NCBI GenBank assembly: GCA_020725195.1 | Contig: DYFL01000001.1 | Coordinates: forward strand, 1-64,000 | From: Hydrogenophilus sp. | GTDB taxonomy: Bacteria; Pseudomonadota; Gammaproteobacteria; Burkholderiales; Thiobacillaceae | Length of the DNA stretch: 64,000 nucleotides | Direction of reading: 5' to 3' | The notes under the pieces: model-generated | Databases searched by the model: none | Told to the model about the DNA's origin: nothing | What the model saw: only the letters and a program-made list of their open reading frames with translations | Made by a program: the position numbers and the translations under genes | Shown: positions 7,009-58,675 of the stretch, one piece after another | Layout of the letters: each line of letters starts with the position of its first letter | Numbering within the stretch: position 1 is the stretch's first letter

Positions 7009-7104
7009 CTGCGCGCCAAGCCCCGAGTATCGCCATGTACGGCGCGCCCGCATCGGCGATGGCGTCCTCGCCCGGCTTCTCTCTGGCTGCGCCGAAGCTT
7101 CGTG

Positions 7105-7138
7105 TTCGCTTCGATTCTTCAAGTCCGACAGGCTGCTA
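7105..7138 (-). repeat. Solo end of the CTAG-type palindromic element, at the anmK stop
   Basis: Thirty bases (7105-7134) are identical to the right end of the full element at 58518-58664. On the minus strand the element starts CTAGCAGCCTGTCGG, and the TAG within it (7136-7138) is the anmK stop codon. No matching second end was found within the zapD-anmK gap. Confidence 0.8.
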
Positions 7139-8233
7139 GGCGGGGTAGATCGCCCCGAGCACGCGGGGGCCCTGGGCCCCCGTCACCTCCGGCAGGTTGC
7201 CCGGTTCGCCGCGCAGGGTCCTGTGGGCCAGCCAGGCGAAGGCATAGGCCTCGACCCAGTCCGCGGGCACCCCGAGCTCGCCGGTGAGGCCGATGCGCAC
7301 GGCCGGCAGGCGCTGCGCCAGCAGGCTGCGAAGCGTCCCGTTGTGGGCGCCGCCGCCGCACAGATAGACCTCCGCCGTGCCCGGGCAGTGGGCCCGGACG
7401 GCAGCGGCCATGGCTTCCACCGTGAACTCCAGCAGGGTGCGCATGACGTCTTCCGGCCGCTCCCTGCCCGAGAGCAGGCCCTCCAGCCAGGCCAGGTTGA
7501 ACTCCTCGCGCCCTGCGCTCTTCGGGGGGGCGGCGGCGAGGAAGGGGTGCGCCAGCAACCGCTCGCGCAGGGCCTCGATGCCTGTGCCGGTGCCCGCGAT
7601 GGCCCCGTCGCGGTCGTAGGCCAGGCCCCAATGGCGCTGCGCCCAGGCATCCATGAGCATGTTGCCGGGGCCGCAGTCGAAGCCGCGTATCGTGCCCGAC
7701 GGCGGCAGATCGGTGAGGTTGGCGATGCCGCCGACGTTCATGATCACGCGGTGGGCGTCCGGGCTGCGGAACAGGGCGGCGTGGAAGGCCGGCACCAGCG
7801 GCGCGCCCTGCCCGCCCGCGGCGATGTCCCGGCTGCGGAAATCCGCCACCACGCGGATGCCGGTGCGTTCCGCGAGCCTCGCCGCATTGCCGAGCTGCAG
7901 GGTGTAGCCGAGGGCGGGGCGGTGGCGGACGGTCTGGCCGTGGCAGCCGATGGCACGGATGCGTCTCGGATCGATGCCCTGGGTCGCCAGCAGCCGCGTG
8001 ACGGTCTCCGCATAGAGGTCGGCGAGCTCGTTGCCGAGCCGGGCCGCCCGGTCGAGTTCGTCGCCTCCCGGCTCGTGCAGGTCGAGGATCCTGCGTGCCA
8101 GCGCCTCCGGATAGGGCAGCCAGAGGCTGGCCAGCAGTGCGGGCTCGGGCTGCGTGGTGATCAATGCGGCATCGACCCCGTCCAGGCTGGTCCCGGACAT
8201 GAGGCCGATGTACAGATCGGGGGGGGCGGTCAA
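7136..8233 (-). CDS. anmK: Anhydro-N-acetylmuramic acid kinase
   Basis: AnmK converts anhydroMurNAc, released by lytic transglycosylases, to MurNAc-6-phosphate during murein recycling. The 365-residue protein starts YIGLMSGTSLDGVDAALI, the family signature, and has the ATP-site motifs VNVGGIANLTDLP and GFDCGPGNMLMDAW. The start is a TTG that overlaps the TGA of the upstream M23 peptidase (sequence ATTGA), which implies translational coupling. Longer upstream readings run inside that peptidase gene and are not real. The stop codon TAG belongs to a repeat end, so the extreme C-terminus may have been redefined by the repeat. Confidence 0.93.
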   Translation of the reverse strand: MTAPPDLYIGLMSGTSLDGVDAALITTQPEPALLASLWLPYPEALARRILDLHEPGGDELDRAARLGNELADLYAETVTRLLATQGIDPRRIRAIGCHGQTVRHRPALGYTLQLGNAARLAERTGIRVVADFRSRDIAAGGQGAPLVPAFHAALFRSPDAHRVIMNVGGIANLTDLPPSGTIRGFDCGPGNMLMDAWAQRHWGLAYDRDGAIAGTGTGIEALRERLLAHPFLAAAPPKSAGREEFNLAWLEGLLSGRERPEDVMRTLLEFTVEAMAAAVRAHCPGTAEVYLCGGGAHNGTLRSLLAQRLPAVRIGLTGELGVPADWVEAYAFAWLAHRTLRGEPGNLPEVTGAQGPRVLGAIYPA

Positions 8234-16171: not shown

Positions 16172-16885
16172 GTGCAGGACAAGCCGCTCATACTGGTGGT
16201 GGACGACGACGCCGGCATACGCGACCTGCTCGCCGACTACCTGCAGCTGCAGGGCTACGCCGTGGCCACCGCGGCCGACGGACGGGAGATGGACGCGCGC
16301 CTCGGGGAGGCGGCGCCCGCCCTGGTCGTCATGGACCTGATGCTGCCCGGCGAGGACGGCCTCGCGCTCACCCGCCGCGTGAAGGCCGCCGCCGGCTGCC
16401 CGGTGATCATGCTCTCGGCCCGGGGCGAGGACGTCGACCGCATCGTCGGCCTCGAGGTGGGCGCGGACGATTATCTCGCCAAGCCCTTCAACCCCCGCGA
16501 GCTCCTGGCGCGCATCCGCGCGGTGCTGCGCCGCCCGGCGGCGCAGGCCGGGCAGGCCGGGGAGGCCGGCGAGGTCTTCCGCTTCGGCCCCTACGCCCTC
16601 GACCTCGCCGCCCAGCAGCTCAGCCGCGAGGGCGAGGAGATCGCGCTCACCCAGGCCGAGTTCGCCCTGCTCAAGGTCTTCGTCGAGCACCCCAACCGGG
16701 CGCTCTCGCGCGACCAGATCATGGACTGGCTCAAGGGCTTCGAGCGCGACCCCTTCGACCGCTCCGTCGACGTGCGCGTGACGCGCCTGCGGCGCAAGAT
16801 CGAGGACGATCCCGCCCACCCCGCGTACATCCGCACCGTCTGGGGCCAGGGCTACCTCTTCGCGCCCAAGGGCAAGGGGGGATGA
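16172..16885 (+). CDS. OmpR-family response regulator
   Basis: This is a 237-residue two-component regulator. The receiver domain has the acidic pair VVDDDAG, the phospho-acceptor Asp in VVMDLMLPGEDG (near residue 54) and the conserved Lys in DDYLAKPFNPREL. The C-terminal winged helix (Trans_reg_C) contains LTQAEFALLKVF and RSVDVRVTRLRRKIEDD. The GTG start has GGAG about 8 nt upstream. The OmpR/EnvZ subtype is suggested by overall similarity and by the kinase that follows. The kinase gene is separated from it by a repeat element of about 150 bp. Confidence 0.9.
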   Translation: MQDKPLILVVDDDAGIRDLLADYLQLQGYAVATAADGREMDARLGEAAPALVVMDLMLPGEDGLALTRRVKAAAGCPVIMLSARGEDVDRIVGLEVGADDYLAKPFNPRELLARIRAVLRRPAAQAGQAGEAGEVFRFGPYALDLAAQQLSREGEEIALTQAEFALLKVFVEHPNRALSRDQIMDWLKGFERDPFDRSVDVRVTRLRRKIEDDPAHPAYIRTVWGQGYLFAPKGKGG

Positions 16886-16913
16886 GGCAGACCGAAGCCA
16901 GAGCCCAGAGAAA

Positions 16914-17066
16914 TCCACAGATGACACAGATGAACACAGACATGCCCCCTGCAGAATCGGGTTATTGCCGGACTCTCGCGGCTTACCATAACGGTTGGCG
17001 GCTGATGGGGCCGAGCCTTTGAAGCATCTGTGTAAATCTGTGTAAATCTGTGTTCATCTGTGGATT
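16914..17066 (+). repeat. Inverted 10-bp-unit element, copy 1 (regulator/kinase gap)
   Basis: The left arm (16914-16940) reads TCCACAGATGACACAGATG and onward; the right arm (17025-17066) consists of 10-bp units ATCTGTGTAA, ATCTGTGTAA, ATCTGTGTTC, ATCTGTGGAT. The arms are inverted and enclose an 84-bp core. A second copy with a homologous 84-bp core is at 49680-49814. Confidence 0.85.
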
Positions 17067-17111
17067 GCACCCTTTGGATTCAACCTGTGGCCATGTGGGG
17101 AGGGTCTTGTC

Positions 17112-18407
17112 TTGACCCTGCTGCCCCGCACCCTGTTCGGCCGCACCGCGGCCTCGCTGCTCGCGGCCTTCGCCGCGCTGCAGGCCATGGCCCTCGCCGT
17201 GGTCTGGGTGACCGTGATCGAGCCCCTGGCCGCGCGCTCGGCCGACGAGCTGGCGGCGCGCATGGTGCTCGCCGCGCAGACCTGGGTCGAGCTGCCGCCT
17301 GCCACGCGCACCGACTACGAGCTGGAGCTGTCCTTCCGGCATCAGCTGGAGCTGGGCGAGGTCCGGGCGCGGCTGCCCGAGGCCGAGGCGCCGAGCCTCT
17401 TCGGCGACCGGCTGGAAGAGGCCCTGGCCCGCCGCGCACGCCAGCCCGTGGAACTCAGGCAGGGCCCCGATCCCGCCTGGACCTGGGTGGAGCTGGACGT
17501 GGCCGGCACGCTGCTGCGCATCGGCTTCCTCAAGGAACGCTACCGGCTGGAGGCGCCGCTCGCCGCCGCCGCCATCCTCTTCGCCGGCGCCCTGCTCACC
17601 ACCGCCGTCGCCCTGCTCATGGCCCGCCGCACCAGCCGGCGCCTCAGGCGCCTGGCCGACTCCGCCCGCGAGGTCGGCCAGGGCCGGCTGCCCGAGCCCC
17701 TGCCGGAGACCGGCGCCGAGGAGCTGATGGAGCTCACCCGCGCCTTCAACCGCATGGCGGCGGAGGTGCAGGCCCTGCTGGAGAACCGCACCACCCTCCT
17801 GGCCGGCATCTCCCACGACCTGCGCACCCCGCTCACCCGCATGCGCCTGGCGCTGTCCCTGCTGCAGGGCGCGGACGAGCGGCTCGTGCGGCGTCTGGAG
17901 GGCGACCTGGAGGAGATCAACCGGCTCATCGACGCCATGCTCGCCTTCGCCCGCTCGCTGCGGGTCGAGGAGGCGCAGCCGGTGGACCTCGCGGCGCTGC
18001 TCGGCGAGATCGCCGGGGCCGCGAGCCGCCGGGAGGCGGTGCGCTGGCAGCCGGGACCGCCCTGCGAGGCGACCGTGGGCGTGCTCGCCCTGCGCCGCAT
18101 CGTCGGCAACCTCCTGGAGAACGCCCTGCGCTACGGCGCGGGCCGGCCGGTCGAGCTGGAGCTTCACTGCGCCGAGCGCGAGGCCGTGATCCGGGTCCTC
18201 GACCGCGGCCCCGGCATCCCCCCGGAGGAGCGCGAGGCGGTGTTCCGGCCCTTCTACCGCCTGGAGCAGTCGCGCTCGAAGGAGGGCGGCGGCAGCGGCC
18301 TCGGGCTCGCCATCGCCCGCCAGCTCGCCGACGCCTGGGGCTGGCGCATCGAGCTCAACCCCCGCGAGGGCGGCGGGCTCGCGGCGAGCCTGATCGTGCC
18401 GCGCTGA
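17112..18407 (+). CDS. EnvZ-like sensor histidine kinase
   Basis: This is a 431-residue membrane sensor kinase. Two membrane segments (about 12-34 and 150-172) enclose a ~115-residue periplasmic domain. A HAMP domain follows, then the H-box with phospho-accepting histidine (LLAGISHDLRTPLTRMR). The ATPase domain has the N-box (NLLENALRYG), G1 (DRGPGIP) and G2 (GSGLGLAIARQ). The start is TTG with GGGGAGG about 10 nt upstream. It presumably partners the OmpR-like regulator, from which it is separated by a repeat. Confidence 0.9.
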   Translation: MTLLPRTLFGRTAASLLAAFAALQAMALAVVWVTVIEPLAARSADELAARMVLAAQTWVELPPATRTDYELELSFRHQLELGEVRARLPEAEAPSLFGDRLEEALARRARQPVELRQGPDPAWTWVELDVAGTLLRIGFLKERYRLEAPLAAAAILFAGALLTTAVALLMARRTSRRLRRLADSAREVGQGRLPEPLPETGAEELMELTRAFNRMAAEVQALLENRTTLLAGISHDLRTPLTRMRLALSLLQGADERLVRRLEGDLEEINRLIDAMLAFARSLRVEEAQPVDLAALLGEIAGAASRREAVRWQPGPPCEATVGVLALRRIVGNLLENALRYGAGRPVELELHCAEREAVIRVLDRGPGIPPEEREAVFRPFYRLEQSRSKEGGGSGLGLAIARQLADAWGWRIELNPREGGGLAASLIVPR

Positions 18408-19409: not shown

Positions 19410-19429
19410 GCATGGCCGCGATCTATGTC

Positions 19430-19500
19430 GTCATTCCCGCGAAAGCGGGAATCCAGGCGGCGTCAGAAAATACATGGATTCCCGCTTTCGCGGGAATGAC
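19430..19500 (+). repeat. dRS3-like inverted repeat pair between glyQ and glyS
   Basis: Two 26-bp arms (19430-19455 and 19475-19500) are perfect inverted copies. Each arm contains a self-complementary ATTCCCGCGAAAGCGGGAAT. That 20-mer fits ATTCCC-N8-GGGAAT, the form of the neisserial dRS3 repeat. Confidence 0.85.
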
Positions 19501-19511
19501 GGGGTTTGGCT

Positions 19512-22948: not shown

Positions 22949-23654
22949 GCCCGTCGAGCGCCGGGAGGAGTGCGGCGAGCTGGCCCTGCACGACCGGCGC
23001 GTGCCCTACACCCTCAAGCGCAGCTCGGCCCGCCGCACCCTGGCACTCTCGGTGAGCGAGGCGGGGGCGGTGACGGTCAACGCCCCCCTGCGCATGGCCT
23101 GGCACCACATCGAGGCCTTCCTCTTCAAGCATGCCGCCTGGCTCGTCTCCCGACTGGAGCGGGTGCAGACGCCCGGCTTCGCCTGGCGGGACGGGGCGGA
23201 GCTGCCCTATCTCGGCGGCCTGCGTCGCCTGGCCCTGCAGCCGGAGGCCCTGCCCTTCGTCATGCCGCTGGGGGAGCGCCTGCTGGTGGGCGGTGCCCCT
23301 GCGGGCGTGCCTGCCCTGGTGGTGGACTGGTACCGGCAGGAGGCCCGGGGCCTGTTGCAGGAACGGCTCGCCCAGCATGCGGACCGTTTGGGTGGGCCAC
23401 TGCCGCGTTTCCGCCTGAGCGGCGCCGCCACCCGCTGGGGCAGCCTCTCGCCGCGCGGGGTCGTCAGCCTCAACTGGCGGCTCGTGAAGGCCTCCTGGGC
23501 CGAGATCGACTATGTCATCTGCCACGAGCTCGCCCACCTGCGCGTGCCCAACCACTCGGCCGCCTTCTGGCGCGAGGTGGCCGCCCTGCTGCCCGGCTAC
23601 GAGGCGGCGAAGGCCAGGCTGCGGGAACACGGCAGGCTGTATTTCCAGTTCTAG
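22932..23654 (+). CDS. YgjP-like metallopeptidase-domain protein
   Basis: This is a 240-residue protein of the YgjP/DUF45 family. The zinc site is HELAHLRVPNHSAAFW (HExxH with a third His), near residue 197. Upstream are RWGSLSPRGVVSLNWRL and other family-typical strands. It overlaps plsC by 17 bp; internal starts are possible. The stop TAG is the first part of a repeat end (CTAGGGGCCTGTCGG). The physiological substrate is unknown. Confidence 0.85.
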   Translation: MPARRRPVERREECGELALHDRRVPYTLKRSSARRTLALSVSEAGAVTVNAPLRMAWHHIEAFLFKHAAWLVSRLERVQTPGFAWRDGAELPYLGGLRRLALQPEALPFVMPLGERLLVGGAPAGVPALVVDWYRQEARGLLQERLAQHADRLGGPLPRFRLSGAATRWGSLSPRGVVSLNWRLVKASWAEIDYVICHELAHLRVPNHSAAFWREVAALLPGYEAAKARLREHGRLYFQF

Positions 23655-23680
23655 GGGCCTGTCGGACTTAAAGAATCGAA
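23655..23680 (+). repeat. Solo end of the CTAG-type palindromic element, at the ygjP-like stop
   Basis: GGGCCTGTCGGACTTAAAG and the following AATCGAA match the end of the element at 58518-58664 when inverted. The element starts at the TAG stop of the YgjP-like gene and also supplies the TAA stop (23668-23670) of the convergent DUF2892 gene. Confidence 0.75.
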
Positions 23681-45030: not shown

Positions 45031-46045
<1,015 letters not shown>

Positions 46046-47362: not shown

Positions 47363-48512
47363 GCACGTGAATCTCGCCATCGTCGGCGGCGGCCCCGTCG
47401 GGGCCGCGCTGGCCACCGCCCTGGAGGGCAGCGGTCTCGGCGTGGCGGTGCTGGAAGCCAGAGAGCGCTTGGAGGCGCGCGATCCGCGCGCCATCGCGCT
47501 GTCCCAGGGGGCGCGCCTGATCCTGGAGCGGCTCGGGGCCTGGGCCCATCTGGAGGCCCGGGCCACGCCCATCGAGACCATCCACGTCTCCCAGCGCGGC
47601 GGCTTCGGCCGCGCCGAGTTCGCCGCCCGCGACATGGATGTGCCCGCCCTGGGCTACGTGGTCGAGTACGGCGACCTCTGCGCGGCGCTGGCGGCGCGGC
47701 TCGCGGCCACCGGGGCGCAGCTGCTCACCGGGGCCCGGGTCGAGGCCGTGCGCGCCACCGGGGGCTACGGCGTGGTCGAATACCGGCAAGGGGGCGAGGC
47801 GCATCTGCTCACCGCGGACCTCGTCGTCCTCGCCGAGGGGGGCCGGGGCCTGCCCGCCCACCGCCAGGAGGTGAAGGACTACGGCCAGACCGCGGTGGTC
47901 TGCACGGTGGCGACCGAGCTGCCGCATGCCCGTCGCGCCTACGAGCGCTTCACGCCCGAGGGGCCCATGGCGCTGCTGCCCCTGGATGCGGGCTACGCCC
48001 TGGTCTGGACGCTGCCGCAGGCGAAGGCCGAGCGCATCCTGGGCCTCGACGACGCGGCCTTCCTCGCCGGGCTGCAGGCCCGCTTCGGCGAGCGCCAGGG
48101 CCGCTTCCTCGCCGCCTCGGCGCGGGCCGCCTTCCCGCTGCGGCGGGTGACCGCCAGCCCGGAGCCGCGGCCGCGCTGCCTGCGCATCGGCAACGCCGCC
48201 CAGACCCTGCACCCGGTGGCCGGCCAGGGCTTCAACCTGGGCCTCAGAGACGCCTGGAAGCTGGCGCAGCTCGCCTGGGAGACGCCCAGGGATGAGCTGG
48301 GCGGCGCGCGCCTCGCCGCCGCCTACCGGGCCGGCCGCCGCACCGACGTGCGGGCCGGGTTGGCCATGACCGACCTGCTGGTGGAGCTCTTCTCCAACGA
48401 CCACGCCCTGCTGCGCCTCGGGCGCGGCGCGGGGCTCGCGCTGCTGGACCTGGCACCGCCGCTGAAGACGGTCTTCGCCCGCAAGATGATGTTCGGGGGG
48501 CAGGCATGGTAG
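47355..48512 (+). CDS. ubiH: 2-octaprenyl-6-methoxyphenol hydroxylase-type FAD monooxygenase UbiH
   Basis: This is a 385-residue flavoprotein hydroxylase of ubiquinone synthesis. It has the Rossmann motif IVGGGPVGAALATALEGSG, the DG-like LVVLAEGG segment and the FAD motif GNAAQTLHPVAGQGFNLGLRD. The position after pepP indicates UbiH rather than UbiI or UbiF. The next gene, a paralogue, overlaps by 7 bp. Confidence 0.9.
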   Translation: MTEHVNLAIVGGGPVGAALATALEGSGLGVAVLEARERLEARDPRAIALSQGARLILERLGAWAHLEARATPIETIHVSQRGGFGRAEFAARDMDVPALGYVVEYGDLCAALAARLAATGAQLLTGARVEAVRATGGYGVVEYRQGGEAHLLTADLVVLAEGGRGLPAHRQEVKDYGQTAVVCTVATELPHARRAYERFTPEGPMALLPLDAGYALVWTLPQAKAERILGLDDAAFLAGLQARFGERQGRFLAASARAAFPLRRVTASPEPRPRCLRIGNAAQTLHPVAGQGFNLGLRDAWKLAQLAWETPRDELGGARLAAAYRAGRRTDVRAGLAMTDLLVELFSNDHALLRLGRGAGLALLDLAPPLKTVFARKMMFGGQAW

Positions 48513-49672
48513 AGCATCCGGACAGGGCCGGGCGCTACGACATCGTCATCGTCGGCGGCGGCCTGACCGGCGCGGCGCTCGCCCTCGCCCTGCGCGGCGG
48601 CGCCTGGCGGGTCGCCGTGGTCGAGCCCAGGCCGCCCCGGCCACCCGAAGAGGCATGGGATGCGCGGATATTCGCCTTCAGTCCGGGCAATGTGGCCTGG
48701 CTGCGGCAGATCGGGGGGTGGACGGAGGCCGTGCGCGCCCAGCCGGTCCATGCCATGAAGATCGCGGGCGATGCCGGCGGGCGGCTCGCCTTCGATGCCC
48801 TGGAGGCGGGGCTGCCCGAGTTGGCCTTCATCGCCGAGAACGGCCGCCTGCAGCACGCCCTGTGGCGGGCGCTCGCCGATGCGGCCAATGTCGACCTGAT
48901 CCGGGGCGAGGCCGAGGCGGTCGCCTGGGGGGAGACCCGGCACCGGCTCCTGCTCGCGGACGGCCGCCGGCTTGAGGCCGAACTGCTGGTGGCGGCGGAC
49001 GGGGCGCACTCCTGGCTGCGCGGCCAGGCCGGCATCGGGCTCGCCGTGGAGGACTACCGCCATGTCGGCGTCGTGGCCAATTTCGAGACGGCGCGCCCGC
49101 ACCGGGGCACGGCCTGGCAGTGGTTCCGCCCCGACGGGGTGCTGGCCTGGCTGCCCCTGCCCGGGAACCGGATCTCCATCGTCTGGTCCACTCCCCCTGA
49201 GCATGCCGAGGCGCTGAAGGCCCTGCCCGCGGATGGATTCGGCGAGCGGGTGACGGAGGCGGGCGGCGGCGTGCTGGGCGCCCTGCGGCAGCTCACGCCG
49301 CCCCAGGGCTTCCCCCTCAAGCGCCGCCGGGCCGAGGCCTGGGTCAGGCCGGGGCTCGTGCTCGTCGGGGATGCGGCCCACACGGTGCACCCCCTGGCCG
49401 GGCAGGGGGTCAACCTGGGCTTCCGGGATGTCCGCCTGCTGGCGGAGGTCCTGCAGGACGCCGGCCGCTCACCGGGCGAGTTCGGCCGGCTGCAGGCCTA
49501 TGCCCTGCGCCGCACCGAAGACGTGGCCTCGATGCAGTGGGTCACGGGCGGCTTGAAGAAGTTGTTCGGCAATGCCGACCCCGGCCTGCGCCGGGTTCGG
49601 AACACGGGGCTCGCCCTCGCCGACCGGCAGGGCTGGCTGAAACAGGCGCTCCTGCGCCATGCGGTTCAATGA
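48506..49672 (+). CDS. UbiH/UbiF/VisC-family FAD monooxygenase
   Basis: This is a 388-residue paralogue of the preceding protein. It has the FAD motif IVGGGLTGAALALALRGG, an intact AADGAHSWLRGQ, and GDAAHTVHPLAGQGVNLGFRD. It probably hydroxylates another position of the ubiquinone ring (UbiI- or UbiF-like); the exact site cannot be told from sequence. It overlaps ubiH by 7 bp. A repeat element follows directly. Confidence 0.88.
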   Translation: MVEHPDRAGRYDIVIVGGGLTGAALALALRGGAWRVAVVEPRPPRPPEEAWDARIFAFSPGNVAWLRQIGGWTEAVRAQPVHAMKIAGDAGGRLAFDALEAGLPELAFIAENGRLQHALWRALADAANVDLIRGEAEAVAWGETRHRLLLADGRRLEAELLVAADGAHSWLRGQAGIGLAVEDYRHVGVVANFETARPHRGTAWQWFRPDGVLAWLPLPGNRISIVWSTPPEHAEALKALPADGFGERVTEAGGGVLGALRQLTPPQGFPLKRRRAEAWVRPGLVLVGDAAHTVHPLAGQGVNLGFRDVRLLAEVLQDAGRSPGEFGRLQAYALRRTEDVASMQWVTGGLKKLFGNADPGLRRVRNTGLALADRQGWLKQALLRHAVQ

Positions 49673-49679
49673 GCCTGAT

Positions 49680-49814
49680 ATCCGCAGATGAACACAGATA
49701 TATTGCCTGCGCAATCAAGGTTTTTACCTGGCATCTCCGGCTTGCCCTCAGGGTTGAGCAGTGGAGGGTTCAAGTCTTTGCCTCATCTGTGTAAATCTGC
49801 GTGCATCTGTGGAT
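49680..49814 (+). repeat. Inverted 10-bp-unit element, copy 2 (upstream of dsbC)
   Basis: The left arm ATCCGCAGATGAACACAGAT (49680-49699) and right units ATCTGTGTAA, ATCTGCGTGC, ATCTGTGGAT (49785-49814) enclose an 84-bp core. This core aligns with the 84-bp core of the copy at 16914 (shared CCTGC..AATC, CGGCTT.CC, GGTTG and CTTTG). Confidence 0.85.
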
Positions 49815-49848
49815 GACTGTTTTTTTTTAGGATGAAAGAGGAAGAAAC

Positions 49849-50595
49849 ATGCGTTTGATGATGGTATTGCTGACGGCGGCATTCATGACGGCTGCCTGTG
49901 CCGGCGACAAGGACAGCACGGGACAGCCCAAGGCGGGCGCCGGGAAGCAGGGGGTCGGCCAGGCCTTCGAGGCGCGCTTCCCGGGCGCCAAGGTCGACAG
50001 CGTGAGCAAGACGCCGATGGCGGGCGTCTACGAGCTGGTGGTCGACGGCAACCAGGTGGTCTACACGGACGAGAAGGCCGAATACCTGCTGCTCGGCGAG
50101 ATGGTGGACGCCCAGTCACGCAAGAACCTCACCCGCGAGCGGGTCGAGGCGCTCATGGCGATCCGCTTCGACACCCTGCCGCTGCAGAACGCCATCAAGG
50201 TGGTGAAGGGCGACGGCAGCCGCAAGCTCGCCGTGTTCTCCGACCCCGACTGCCCCTTCTGCCGCAAGCTGGAGCCGGAGCTCGCCAAGCTCGACAACGT
50301 GACCATCTACACCTTCCCCTACCCCCTGCCCATGCATCCGGACGCCGGGCGCAAGTCCAAGCTGGTCTGGTGCAGCCAGGACCGGGCGAAGGCCTGGGAA
50401 GACCTGATGCTGCGGGGCAAGCTGCCCGAGAAGGGCAAGACCGACTGCGCCAACCCCGTGGACGACAACGTCGCCCTGGGCCAGAAGCTGCGCATCGACG
50501 GCACCCCCGCCATGGTCTTCGTCAACGGCAAGCGGGCACCCGGCTACATGCCGGCCGCCCAGATCGAGGAGCTGCTCGCCGCCGCCGGCAAGTAA
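49849..50595 (+). CDS. DsbC-family thiol:disulfide interchange protein
   Basis: This is a 248-residue periplasmic disulfide isomerase. A signal sequence of ~20 residues precedes the N-terminal dimerisation domain (VYELVVDGNQVVYTDE) and a thioredoxin fold with active site CPFC (DPDCPFCRKLEPEL). The cis-Pro segment is IDGTPAMVF. A second Cys pair, typical of DsbC, is in LVWCSQDRAKAW and TDCANP. Cys17 in TAAC makes a lipoprotein conceivable but the lipobox is poor. GAGGAAGAAAC precedes the ATG; a repeat lies 34 bp upstream. Confidence 0.92.
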   Translation: MRLMMVLLTAAFMTAACAGDKDSTGQPKAGAGKQGVGQAFEARFPGAKVDSVSKTPMAGVYELVVDGNQVVYTDEKAEYLLLGEMVDAQSRKNLTRERVEALMAIRFDTLPLQNAIKVVKGDGSRKLAVFSDPDCPFCRKLEPELAKLDNVTIYTFPYPLPMHPDAGRKSKLVWCSQDRAKAWEDLMLRGKLPEKGKTDCANPVDDNVALGQKLRIDGTPAMVFVNGKRAPGYMPAAQIEELLAAAGK

Positions 50596-55929: not shown

Positions 55930-56018
55930 GGGAAATGGGAAACGGGAAAAGGGAAACGCGCATGCCGTTTCGATGGCGCAGGCGCTTCGCGTTTCCCGTT
56001 TCTCTTTTCCCGTTTCCC
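55930..56018. repeat. Inverted tandem heptamer pair between gph and trpE
   Basis: Left: GGGAAAT, GGGAAAC, GGGAAAA, GGGAAAC (55930-55957). Right: GTTTCCC, GTTTCTC, TTTTCCC, GTTTCCC (55991-56018), the inverse. The 33-bp core (55958-55990) contains GCGCATGCCG. It is the same unit as the amgK/murU array. Confidence 0.9.
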
Positions 56019-56032
56019 CGACAGGATGGCAC

Positions 56033-57555: not shown

Positions 57556-58518
57556 CTGCCCCCCGCCGTCTTCCTCATGGGCCCCACGGCCTGCGGCAAG
57601 ACCGATCTCGCCGTGGCCCTGGCCGAGCGCCTGCCGCTCGAGATCATCAGCGTCGACTCCGCCCTCGTCTACCGCGGCATGGACATCGGCACGGCCAAGC
57701 CCGACGCCGCCACCCTGGCGCGCGCGCCGCACCACCTCGTCGACATCCTCGAGCCCACCGAGCGCTATTCCGCCGGCCGCTTCCGGGCCGACGCCCTCAA
57801 GCTCATGGCCGAGATCACCGCGCGCGGCCGGGTGCCGCTGCTGGTGGGCGGCACCATGCTCTACTTCAAGGCCCTGAAGGCGGGGCTCGACGCCCTGCCC
57901 CGGGCGGACGCGCGCCTGCGCGCCGAGCTCGACGCGCGCGCCGCGCGCGAGGGCTGGCCCGCCCTGCATGCGGAGCTCGCGCGCCTGGACCCGGCCACCG
58001 CCGCCCGGCTGCCGCCCACCGACGCCCAGCGCATCCAGCGGGCGCTGGAGGTGTGCCTCGTCACCGGCCGGCCCCTGTCCGCCCTGCAAGGCGGGGCGCG
58101 GGGCGGGGCGCTGCCCTACCGGCTCATCGAGATCGCGCTCCTGCCCCACGACCGCGCCGCCCTGCACGCGCGCATCGACGCCCGCTTCCGGGCCATGCTG
58201 GCGGCCGGCTTCGTCGATGAGCTCCGGCGCCTGCGCGCCGACTACGACCTGACCCCCGACCTGCCCTCCATGCGCTGCGTGGGCTACCGGCAGGCCTGGG
58301 ACCATCTGGACGGAAAATGCAGCCCGGAAGAGCTCTGCGCGCGCGGTGCGGCGGCCACGCGCCAGCTCGCCAAGCGGCAGATGACCTGGCTGCGGGGCTG
58401 GCAGGGGGTCGAGGTCTTCGACTGCCTGGACCCGGGGCTGGCCGGGCGGGTGACGGCATGGCTCGCCGGGCGCCTGCAGGGTTCTTCAGGCCCTGGCGCG
58501 GCGACGGACCCTGTCTAG
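57556..58518 (+). CDS. miaA: tRNA dimethylallyltransferase MiaA
   Basis: MiaA prenylates A37 of tRNAs that read UNN codons. The 320-residue reading has P-loop [31 protein letters not shown] and [10 protein letters not shown]. No ATG, GTG or TTG gives a normal N-terminus: the first ATG (57577) begins inside the P-loop strand and the previous one (57424) lies within trpE. A CTG at 57556 with GGAGG 5-6 nt upstream gives the usual length and is proposed as start. The stop TAG coincides with the start of a repeat. Confidence 0.88.
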
Positions 58519-58664
58519 GAGCCTGTCGGACTTAAAGGAAATCGGCTGCAAATTCGGCGGAACGGTCCATATTTCGCCGCTTTCTTGGGCAATAGTGCGA
58601 CTATTGCCCGGCGAAATCGCCAAAACTCCGTTTTCGCTTCGATTCTTCAAGTCCGACAGGCTCC
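58518..58664. repeat. Full CTAG-type palindromic element (MITE-like)
   Basis: Terminal inverted repeats of 20 bp, GGAGCCTGTCGGACTTAAAG and its inverse with one mismatch, bound 147 bp. The centre is a perfect hairpin GGGCAATAGT-gcg-ACTATTGCCC (58587-58609) within ATTTCGCCG/CGGCGAAAT arms. No reading frame for a transposase fits. Solo ends occur at 7105 and 23655. Confidence 0.88.
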
Positions 58665-58675
58665 CAGCCAGGGCG

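Follow-up and report, generated by a model that had tools for sequence, protein, structure and literature searches.

A dispersed palindromic insertion in Hydrogenophilus sp. and GxxExxY nuclease genes enclosed by the same kind of arms

The palindromic element that precedes dsbC in this Hydrogenophilus genome is a dispersed insertion of about 165 bp, which is present in about 50 copies in short gaps between neighbouring genes. The same kind of palindromic arms encloses GxxExxY genes in many bacteria and some archaea. With a probability of roughly 0.55, we regard the element as a non-autonomous, MITE-like relative of GxxExxY elements, with the nuclease as its likely mobiliser; it is termed a non-autonomous relative, and not a full GxxExxY element, because the copy in the window lacks the nuclease gene. 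The window denotes the whole stretch of 64,000 nucleotides that was analyzed.

The element before dsbC and its copies in the genome

The element lies between two genes; these genes and all parts described here are on the forward strand. The upstream gene (48506–49672), taken from the list of open reading frames, encodes what we take by resemblance to be a UbiH/VisC-like FAD monooxygenase (hereafter ubi). The downstream gene (49849–50595), presumably dsbC by resemblance, was assigned from the same list and from synteny in relatives. Inspection of the sequence, together with a comparison of ends over copies and of empty sites, places a TGA at either end of the insert: the left one (49670–49672) coincides with the ubi stop codon and the right one is found at 49833–49835, in the manner of a target-site direct repeat. 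If TGA is the duplicated target, the inserted element measures 163 bp (49673–49835). The arm pattern and the alignment of copies delimit a left arm of two iterated units (49680–49699) and a right arm of three 10-bp units ATCTGTGTNN that closes with CTGTGGAT (49785–49814). The arms flank an 85-nt core (49700–49784), which is homologous among 33 aligned copies and has no supported RNA structure. A tail made of a T-run and an AGGA end (about AACYGCTTTTTCWAGGW; 49815–49832) follows the right arm and is conserved in many copies. The distance from the right arm to the ATG of dsbC at 49849 is 34 nt, the spacing given in an earlier note on this DNA.

The order of ubi and dsbC is kept in relatives, and the query has at least a partial match in 35 of 41 genomes. 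The stretch between the ubi stop and the ATG that follows is element-free and 11 to 67 nt long in all 12 relatives read, compared with 176 nt here; the junction in genome G022 is as short as in the other relatives. The second copy of the element in the window, detected by its profile match (16913–17065), is located between genes that presumably encode an OmpR-type regulator and a sensor kinase. At this site 12 relatives have 5–109 nt between the aligned gene ends, compared with 226 bp here (16885 to 17112). Because the junctions are short and element-free in 12 of 12 relatives at both sites, the copies in the window are insertions. Removal of the insert before dsbC would leave an ordinary short intergenic gap and a ribosome-binding-like stretch.

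Within the window the arm pattern has 9 matches versus 0.22 expected. In the assembly (2.84 Mb in 108 contigs), the two-unit pattern with at most two mismatches is matched 49 times in the forward and 47 times in the reverse orientation, whereas the reversed control gives 0 and 1 matches. A profile scan of 44 stretches around these matches and of the window gave 62 non-overlapping hits, among which 49 copies score 55 or more; this number is a minimum for the genome, as the scan covered the stretches around pattern matches only. The arm-to-arm length ranges from 95 to 153 nt in the 40 copies measured. The median pairwise identity of the 33 aligned copies is 65% overall and 48% in the core, and in one subfamily the cores are up to 94% alike, which points to a fairly recent spread. 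Three further genera of the family (genomes G021, G004 and G001) also have copies with a homologous core.

Neighbouring genes were called with a gene caller trained on seven genes judged real. Of the 48 copies with genes called on both sides, 42 lie between co-directional genes, 5 between convergent genes (one of these copies overlaps a predicted gene) and 1 between divergent genes; one further copy has no called left neighbour. Co-directional neighbours are not significantly over-represented (42/48 versus 216/275, p = 0.18), and the scarcity of divergent neighbours is of borderline significance (p = 0.06). Thirty copies are oriented with the transcription of both neighbours and 12 against it (p = 0.008). 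The common orientation relative to the flanking genes that the earlier note described is thus correct for both copies in the window, but is not a rule over the 49 copies.

A T-N-A repeat can be parsed at both ends in 14 of 37 anchored copies and does not parse in the other 23; the middle base is equal in 11 of the parsed copies and different in 3 (permutation p = 0.003). Short terminal sequences, TTSAWCCT, are found outside the arms. For the flanks of two copies in stretch L059, no orthologous junction was found in 12 relatives. A separate repeat with many matches in the relative G010 adjoins one copy of the element in this stretch (L059:4591–4662), and copies are paired side by side in each of two other stretches (L054:2454–2739 and L060:2367–2723).

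The window also contains repeats of other kinds. At 45031–45236, near a nucleotidyltransferase-like gene, arrays of the heptad (CGGGAAA)n make up a long inverted repeat together with their reverse complement; a related stretch is located at 55983–56021. A second dispersed family (TTCGATTCTTCAAGTCCGACAGGCT) occurs at 7090–7157, 23651–23680, 58497–58537 and 58618–58673, and forms an inverted pair at 58509–58673 with 107 nt between its arms. A perfect 27-nt inverted repeat, CGTCATTCCCGCGAAAGCGGGAATCCA, with a spacing of 19 nt, is present at 19429–19501.

Homology of the cores and RNA structure

The core of the copy at 16913–17065 comprises 84 nt (16942–17025) and is identical to that of the copy before dsbC in 57 of 87 alignment columns. 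The alignment score is 39, whereas shuffles average -17 (sd 8), and none of 2000 shuffles scored as high. Clear end sequences are missing in window copy 1. These data confirm the homologous cores and shared arms of the two copies, which had been noticed from the letters of the window. The unit had also been called a true element, which agrees with the alignment of 33 copies across the core, with the homologues in three other genera and with the absence of the element from 12 of 12 relatives at both sites. Slippage or a simple tandem repeat, already doubted in the earlier note, is ruled out as the origin by the homologous core. The cores had been described as equal in length; we find a strong tendency (82–85 nt in 21 of the 33 aligned cores) rather than strict equality (range 60–85 nt).

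The conserved length had further been read as a sign of a selected structure or an RNA. The whole unit does fold better than its shuffles (z -2.73), because of its arms. RNAalifold on the 33 copies returned 22 pairs, all in the arms and none in the core. The arms pair in 97.2% of cells, and 28 cells are changed on both sides, a count that 0 of 500 shuffles reached; arms with a common unit type would covary in this manner even without any RNA. Seven cores folded like their shuffles (z -1.76 to 0.45), the best core hairpin displayed covariation no better than that of shuffles (118 of 500 as high), and an Rfam search of the window found no family at the gathering score. In the tests by single folding, RNAalifold, pair counting and an Rfam search, only the arms stood up, and an RNA element was rejected as a candidate. 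The proposed structure therefore stands for the arms and falls for the core. Random core length and missing base-pair covariation had been named together as signs against the proposal: the length is not random, and covariation in the core is absent. The conserved core length is explained, without an RNA, by the shared ancestry of a dispersed insertion.

GxxExxY genes between palindromic arms

On contig C74 of the same genome, arms of inverted ATCTGTG units enclose a frame of 150 residues that matches TIGR04256 (GxxExxY, E = 3e-40) and PF13366 (E = 1e-36). Its neighbours are presumably porA and porB, which we take to encode two subunits of a 2-oxoacid oxidoreductase. The junction is a 23-bp gap in genome G010, and the gene-bearing element is present in G021, a genome that also contains copies of the short element. 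No transposase-type gene lies between the arms of this C74 copy, the one gene-bearing copy that was read whole. In the stretches read around arm matches, the gene enclosed by matching arms is the GxxExxY nuclease. A second GxxExxY gene of this genome is found near a contig end (L176; G000:C42:1-2500), with a CTTTGTG-type arm downstream.

The gene between window-type arms therefore belongs to the family of TIGR04256 and PF13366 (PDDEXK_3), whereas the element in the window is gene-less; the library entries name only the motif or the fold. The open reading frame list and a tblastn search of the cores revealed neither a GxxExxY gene nor a convincing remnant in the copy before dsbC. In the search for a GxxExxY relic in the core (83 rows, E up to 1), the best match displayed has an E value of 0.008 over 31 residues and is not convincing. 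The active-site residues of the PD-(D/E)XK nuclease (D, E, K and Q) do not vary within the aligned sets. The predicted structure has a pLDDT of 97.5; its nearest solved fold is SSO0001 (Z 9.6), which we take to be a Cas4, and Foldseek points to lambda-type exonucleases. The best solved folds are thus those of the Cas4/lambda-exonuclease branch of PD-(D/E)XK enzymes, from which the GxxExxY nuclease differs as a single domain of about 115 residues with no significant match in a PDB sequence search (best E 0.48). Viral contigs contained only 5 relatives of the nuclease.

Among 398 genomes surveyed within the phylum, 65 have a GxxExxY gene and 46 have the ATCTGTG arm pattern. Twenty genomes have at least three arm matches, and 17 of these 20 carry GxxExxY, versus 65 of 398 overall (p = 5e-12, uncorrected for relatedness). 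The association is weaker inside family f51 (16/19 versus 29/55, p = 0.03). The arm-rich genomes with no GxxExxY hit are G159, G303 and G306, and GxxExxY was not found in G001 and G004, although copies with a homologous core are present in both. In the family of Hydrogenophilus sp. itself, GxxExxY occurs in 21 of 117 genomes and the ATCTGTG pattern in 6 of 117, and only the genome studied here is rich in the pattern.

Inspection of 30 GxxExxY flanks revealed arms of other unit types too. Inverted flanks were found at 60 of the 80 named-genome loci, which represent the best 80 of 560 in the scan. The flank test covered 109 of 111 loci, two being left out with a contig end too near. The median score of the inverted flanks was 39 for the 109 loci, compared with 17 for 1681 windows from the same loci. 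The score is at or above 27 for 83 of the 109 genes, that is, above the 99th percentile of the control, 26, and is below the threshold for the remaining 26. In a control aligned to genes, these 83 of 109 GxxExxY genes compare with 5 of 221 other open reading frames at the same loci (p = 6e-48). All 10 own-family loci read have inverted flanks (scores 29–59). The median arm-to-arm span of the gene-bearing elements is 466 bp, and at 67 of the 83 loci the open frame overlaps the 5' arm. At loci L131, L133 and L142 a short unit, complete with both arms and core, follows the gene, giving three arm blocks. In one family, many GxxExxY genes occupy a single junction, presumably trpD-trpC, a pattern more in keeping with vertical inheritance than with frequent movement.

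A tree was built from the nuclease domain only (100 columns) for the 68 loci with a clear unit class; 15 of the 83 armed loci were left out, 7 with no unit match and 8 with only one match or different letters. On the tree, the initial letter of the unit (A or C) changes twice, whereas shuffles require 22.5 changes on average and 16 at minimum. Host phylum changes 22 times versus 28.4 in shuffles (41 named rows, 14 phyla), and both first letters occur in six of the 14 phyla. The tree is short and many of its forks are open; in a fuller tree, support for the C side (37 rows) is 97. Arms and nuclease have therefore been inherited together across hosts. Such co-inheritance would be expected from recognition of the arms by the nuclease, and equally from simple linkage within one element.

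Origin of the element

According to the reading that we prefer, a GxxExxY element would be a compact unit of about 460 bp, in which the gene for the nuclease of about 115 residues lies between arms of iterated 8–11-bp units. The nuclease may recognise the units of its own arms, and may bind and cut them, perhaps in hairpin form. Whatever DNA lies between matching arms, gene-bearing or gene-less, could then be moved by cut-and-paste or copied. The element inserts into short intergenic gaps, often at a TGA stop codon, and would leave a 3-bp T-N-A direct repeat. The main doubts about the nuclease as mobiliser are the gene-less copies in gene-free genomes, a terminal repeat that is patchy among copies and a possible role of the nuclease as a mere passenger.

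Palindromic repeats of the ERIC, BIME, REP and Correia types lie in operons and are transcribed as hairpins. The element resembles them as a palindromic repeat within operons, but differs in that its arms are made of iterated units and its partner gene encodes a nuclease and not the REP-associated transposase. Effects of these repeats in operons are described in PMC3049150. The same paper describes MITEs, such as the pneumococcal RUP and BOX, as short and usually gene-less sequences with terminal inverted repeats and target duplications, dispersed in intergenic or transcribed positions. The element in the window is likewise short, gene-less and multi-copy, with terminal inverted repeats and empty sites in relatives. 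In contrast to RUP and BOX, its arms are iterated 10-bp units that are common to a nuclease gene family and not to a known transposase. In a literature search with most subscription papers outside its reach, nothing was found on the sequences of the arm units, and among the papers listed on MITEs, stop codons and nucleases no link between GxxExxY and repeats was noticed; a passage of PMC8934634 on GxxExxY is not about repeats.

An unlikely alternative is that an unrelated transposase moves the copies, as ordinary MITEs, and that GxxExxY genes were captured as cargo between the same ends. The MITE-like form and size, the TTSAWCCT sequences outside the arms and the core-bearing copies in two genomes with no GxxExxY would suit such an origin. 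It has to contend, however, with one gene family that is joined to many unit sequences in 14 host phyla, with the unit type tracking the gene lineage, so that repeated capture would have to match the specificity each time; the gene-bearing copy read whole, from this genome, also has no transposase between its arms. Less probable still is a homing-type selfish gene that consists of GxxExxY and its arms and spreads only to matching junctions, the short elements being decayed or deleted forms. The use of the same junctions in many genomes of one family, the nuclease as sole gene and an open frame that reaches the 5' arm in most armed loci are consistent with homing. Homing to a single site does not explain, however, why short copies (at least 49) are scattered over different junctions and have their own core, and these cores contain no recognisable GxxExxY remnant.

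We consider it very improbable that selection maintains the element as an RNA device that is transcribed and, as a hairpin, would protect, cut or attenuate the mRNA of operons. The long arm hairpin, the covariation in the arms, the location between neighbouring genes and the 30:12 bias in orientation could all be read in this manner, but the core has no structure, no Rfam family was matched, and 12 of 12 relatives do without the element at both window sites. Effects on RNA may instead be side effects of insertion. The non-autonomous relative of GxxExxY elements thus remains our best explanation.

The finding offers a testable role for the widespread and unexplained GxxExxY family, and explains the iterated palindromic repeats (with units such as ATCTGTG, CTCTGCG or CTTCGTG) beside its genes. 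The arms inside the open frame at the start of the gene bear on the annotation of the protein start. More tentatively, GxxExxY and its arms may constitute a new minimal class of mobile elements in bacteria and archaea, with a Cas4-like nuclease domain, iterated palindromic arms of its own and no transposase, in which the arm code would evolve with the nuclease and gene-less copies would be spawned. A unit code that tracks the nuclease lineage leads to a straightforward binding experiment, and the arrangement suggests that mobility may require no more than a single PD-(D/E)XK nuclease and arms that match it.
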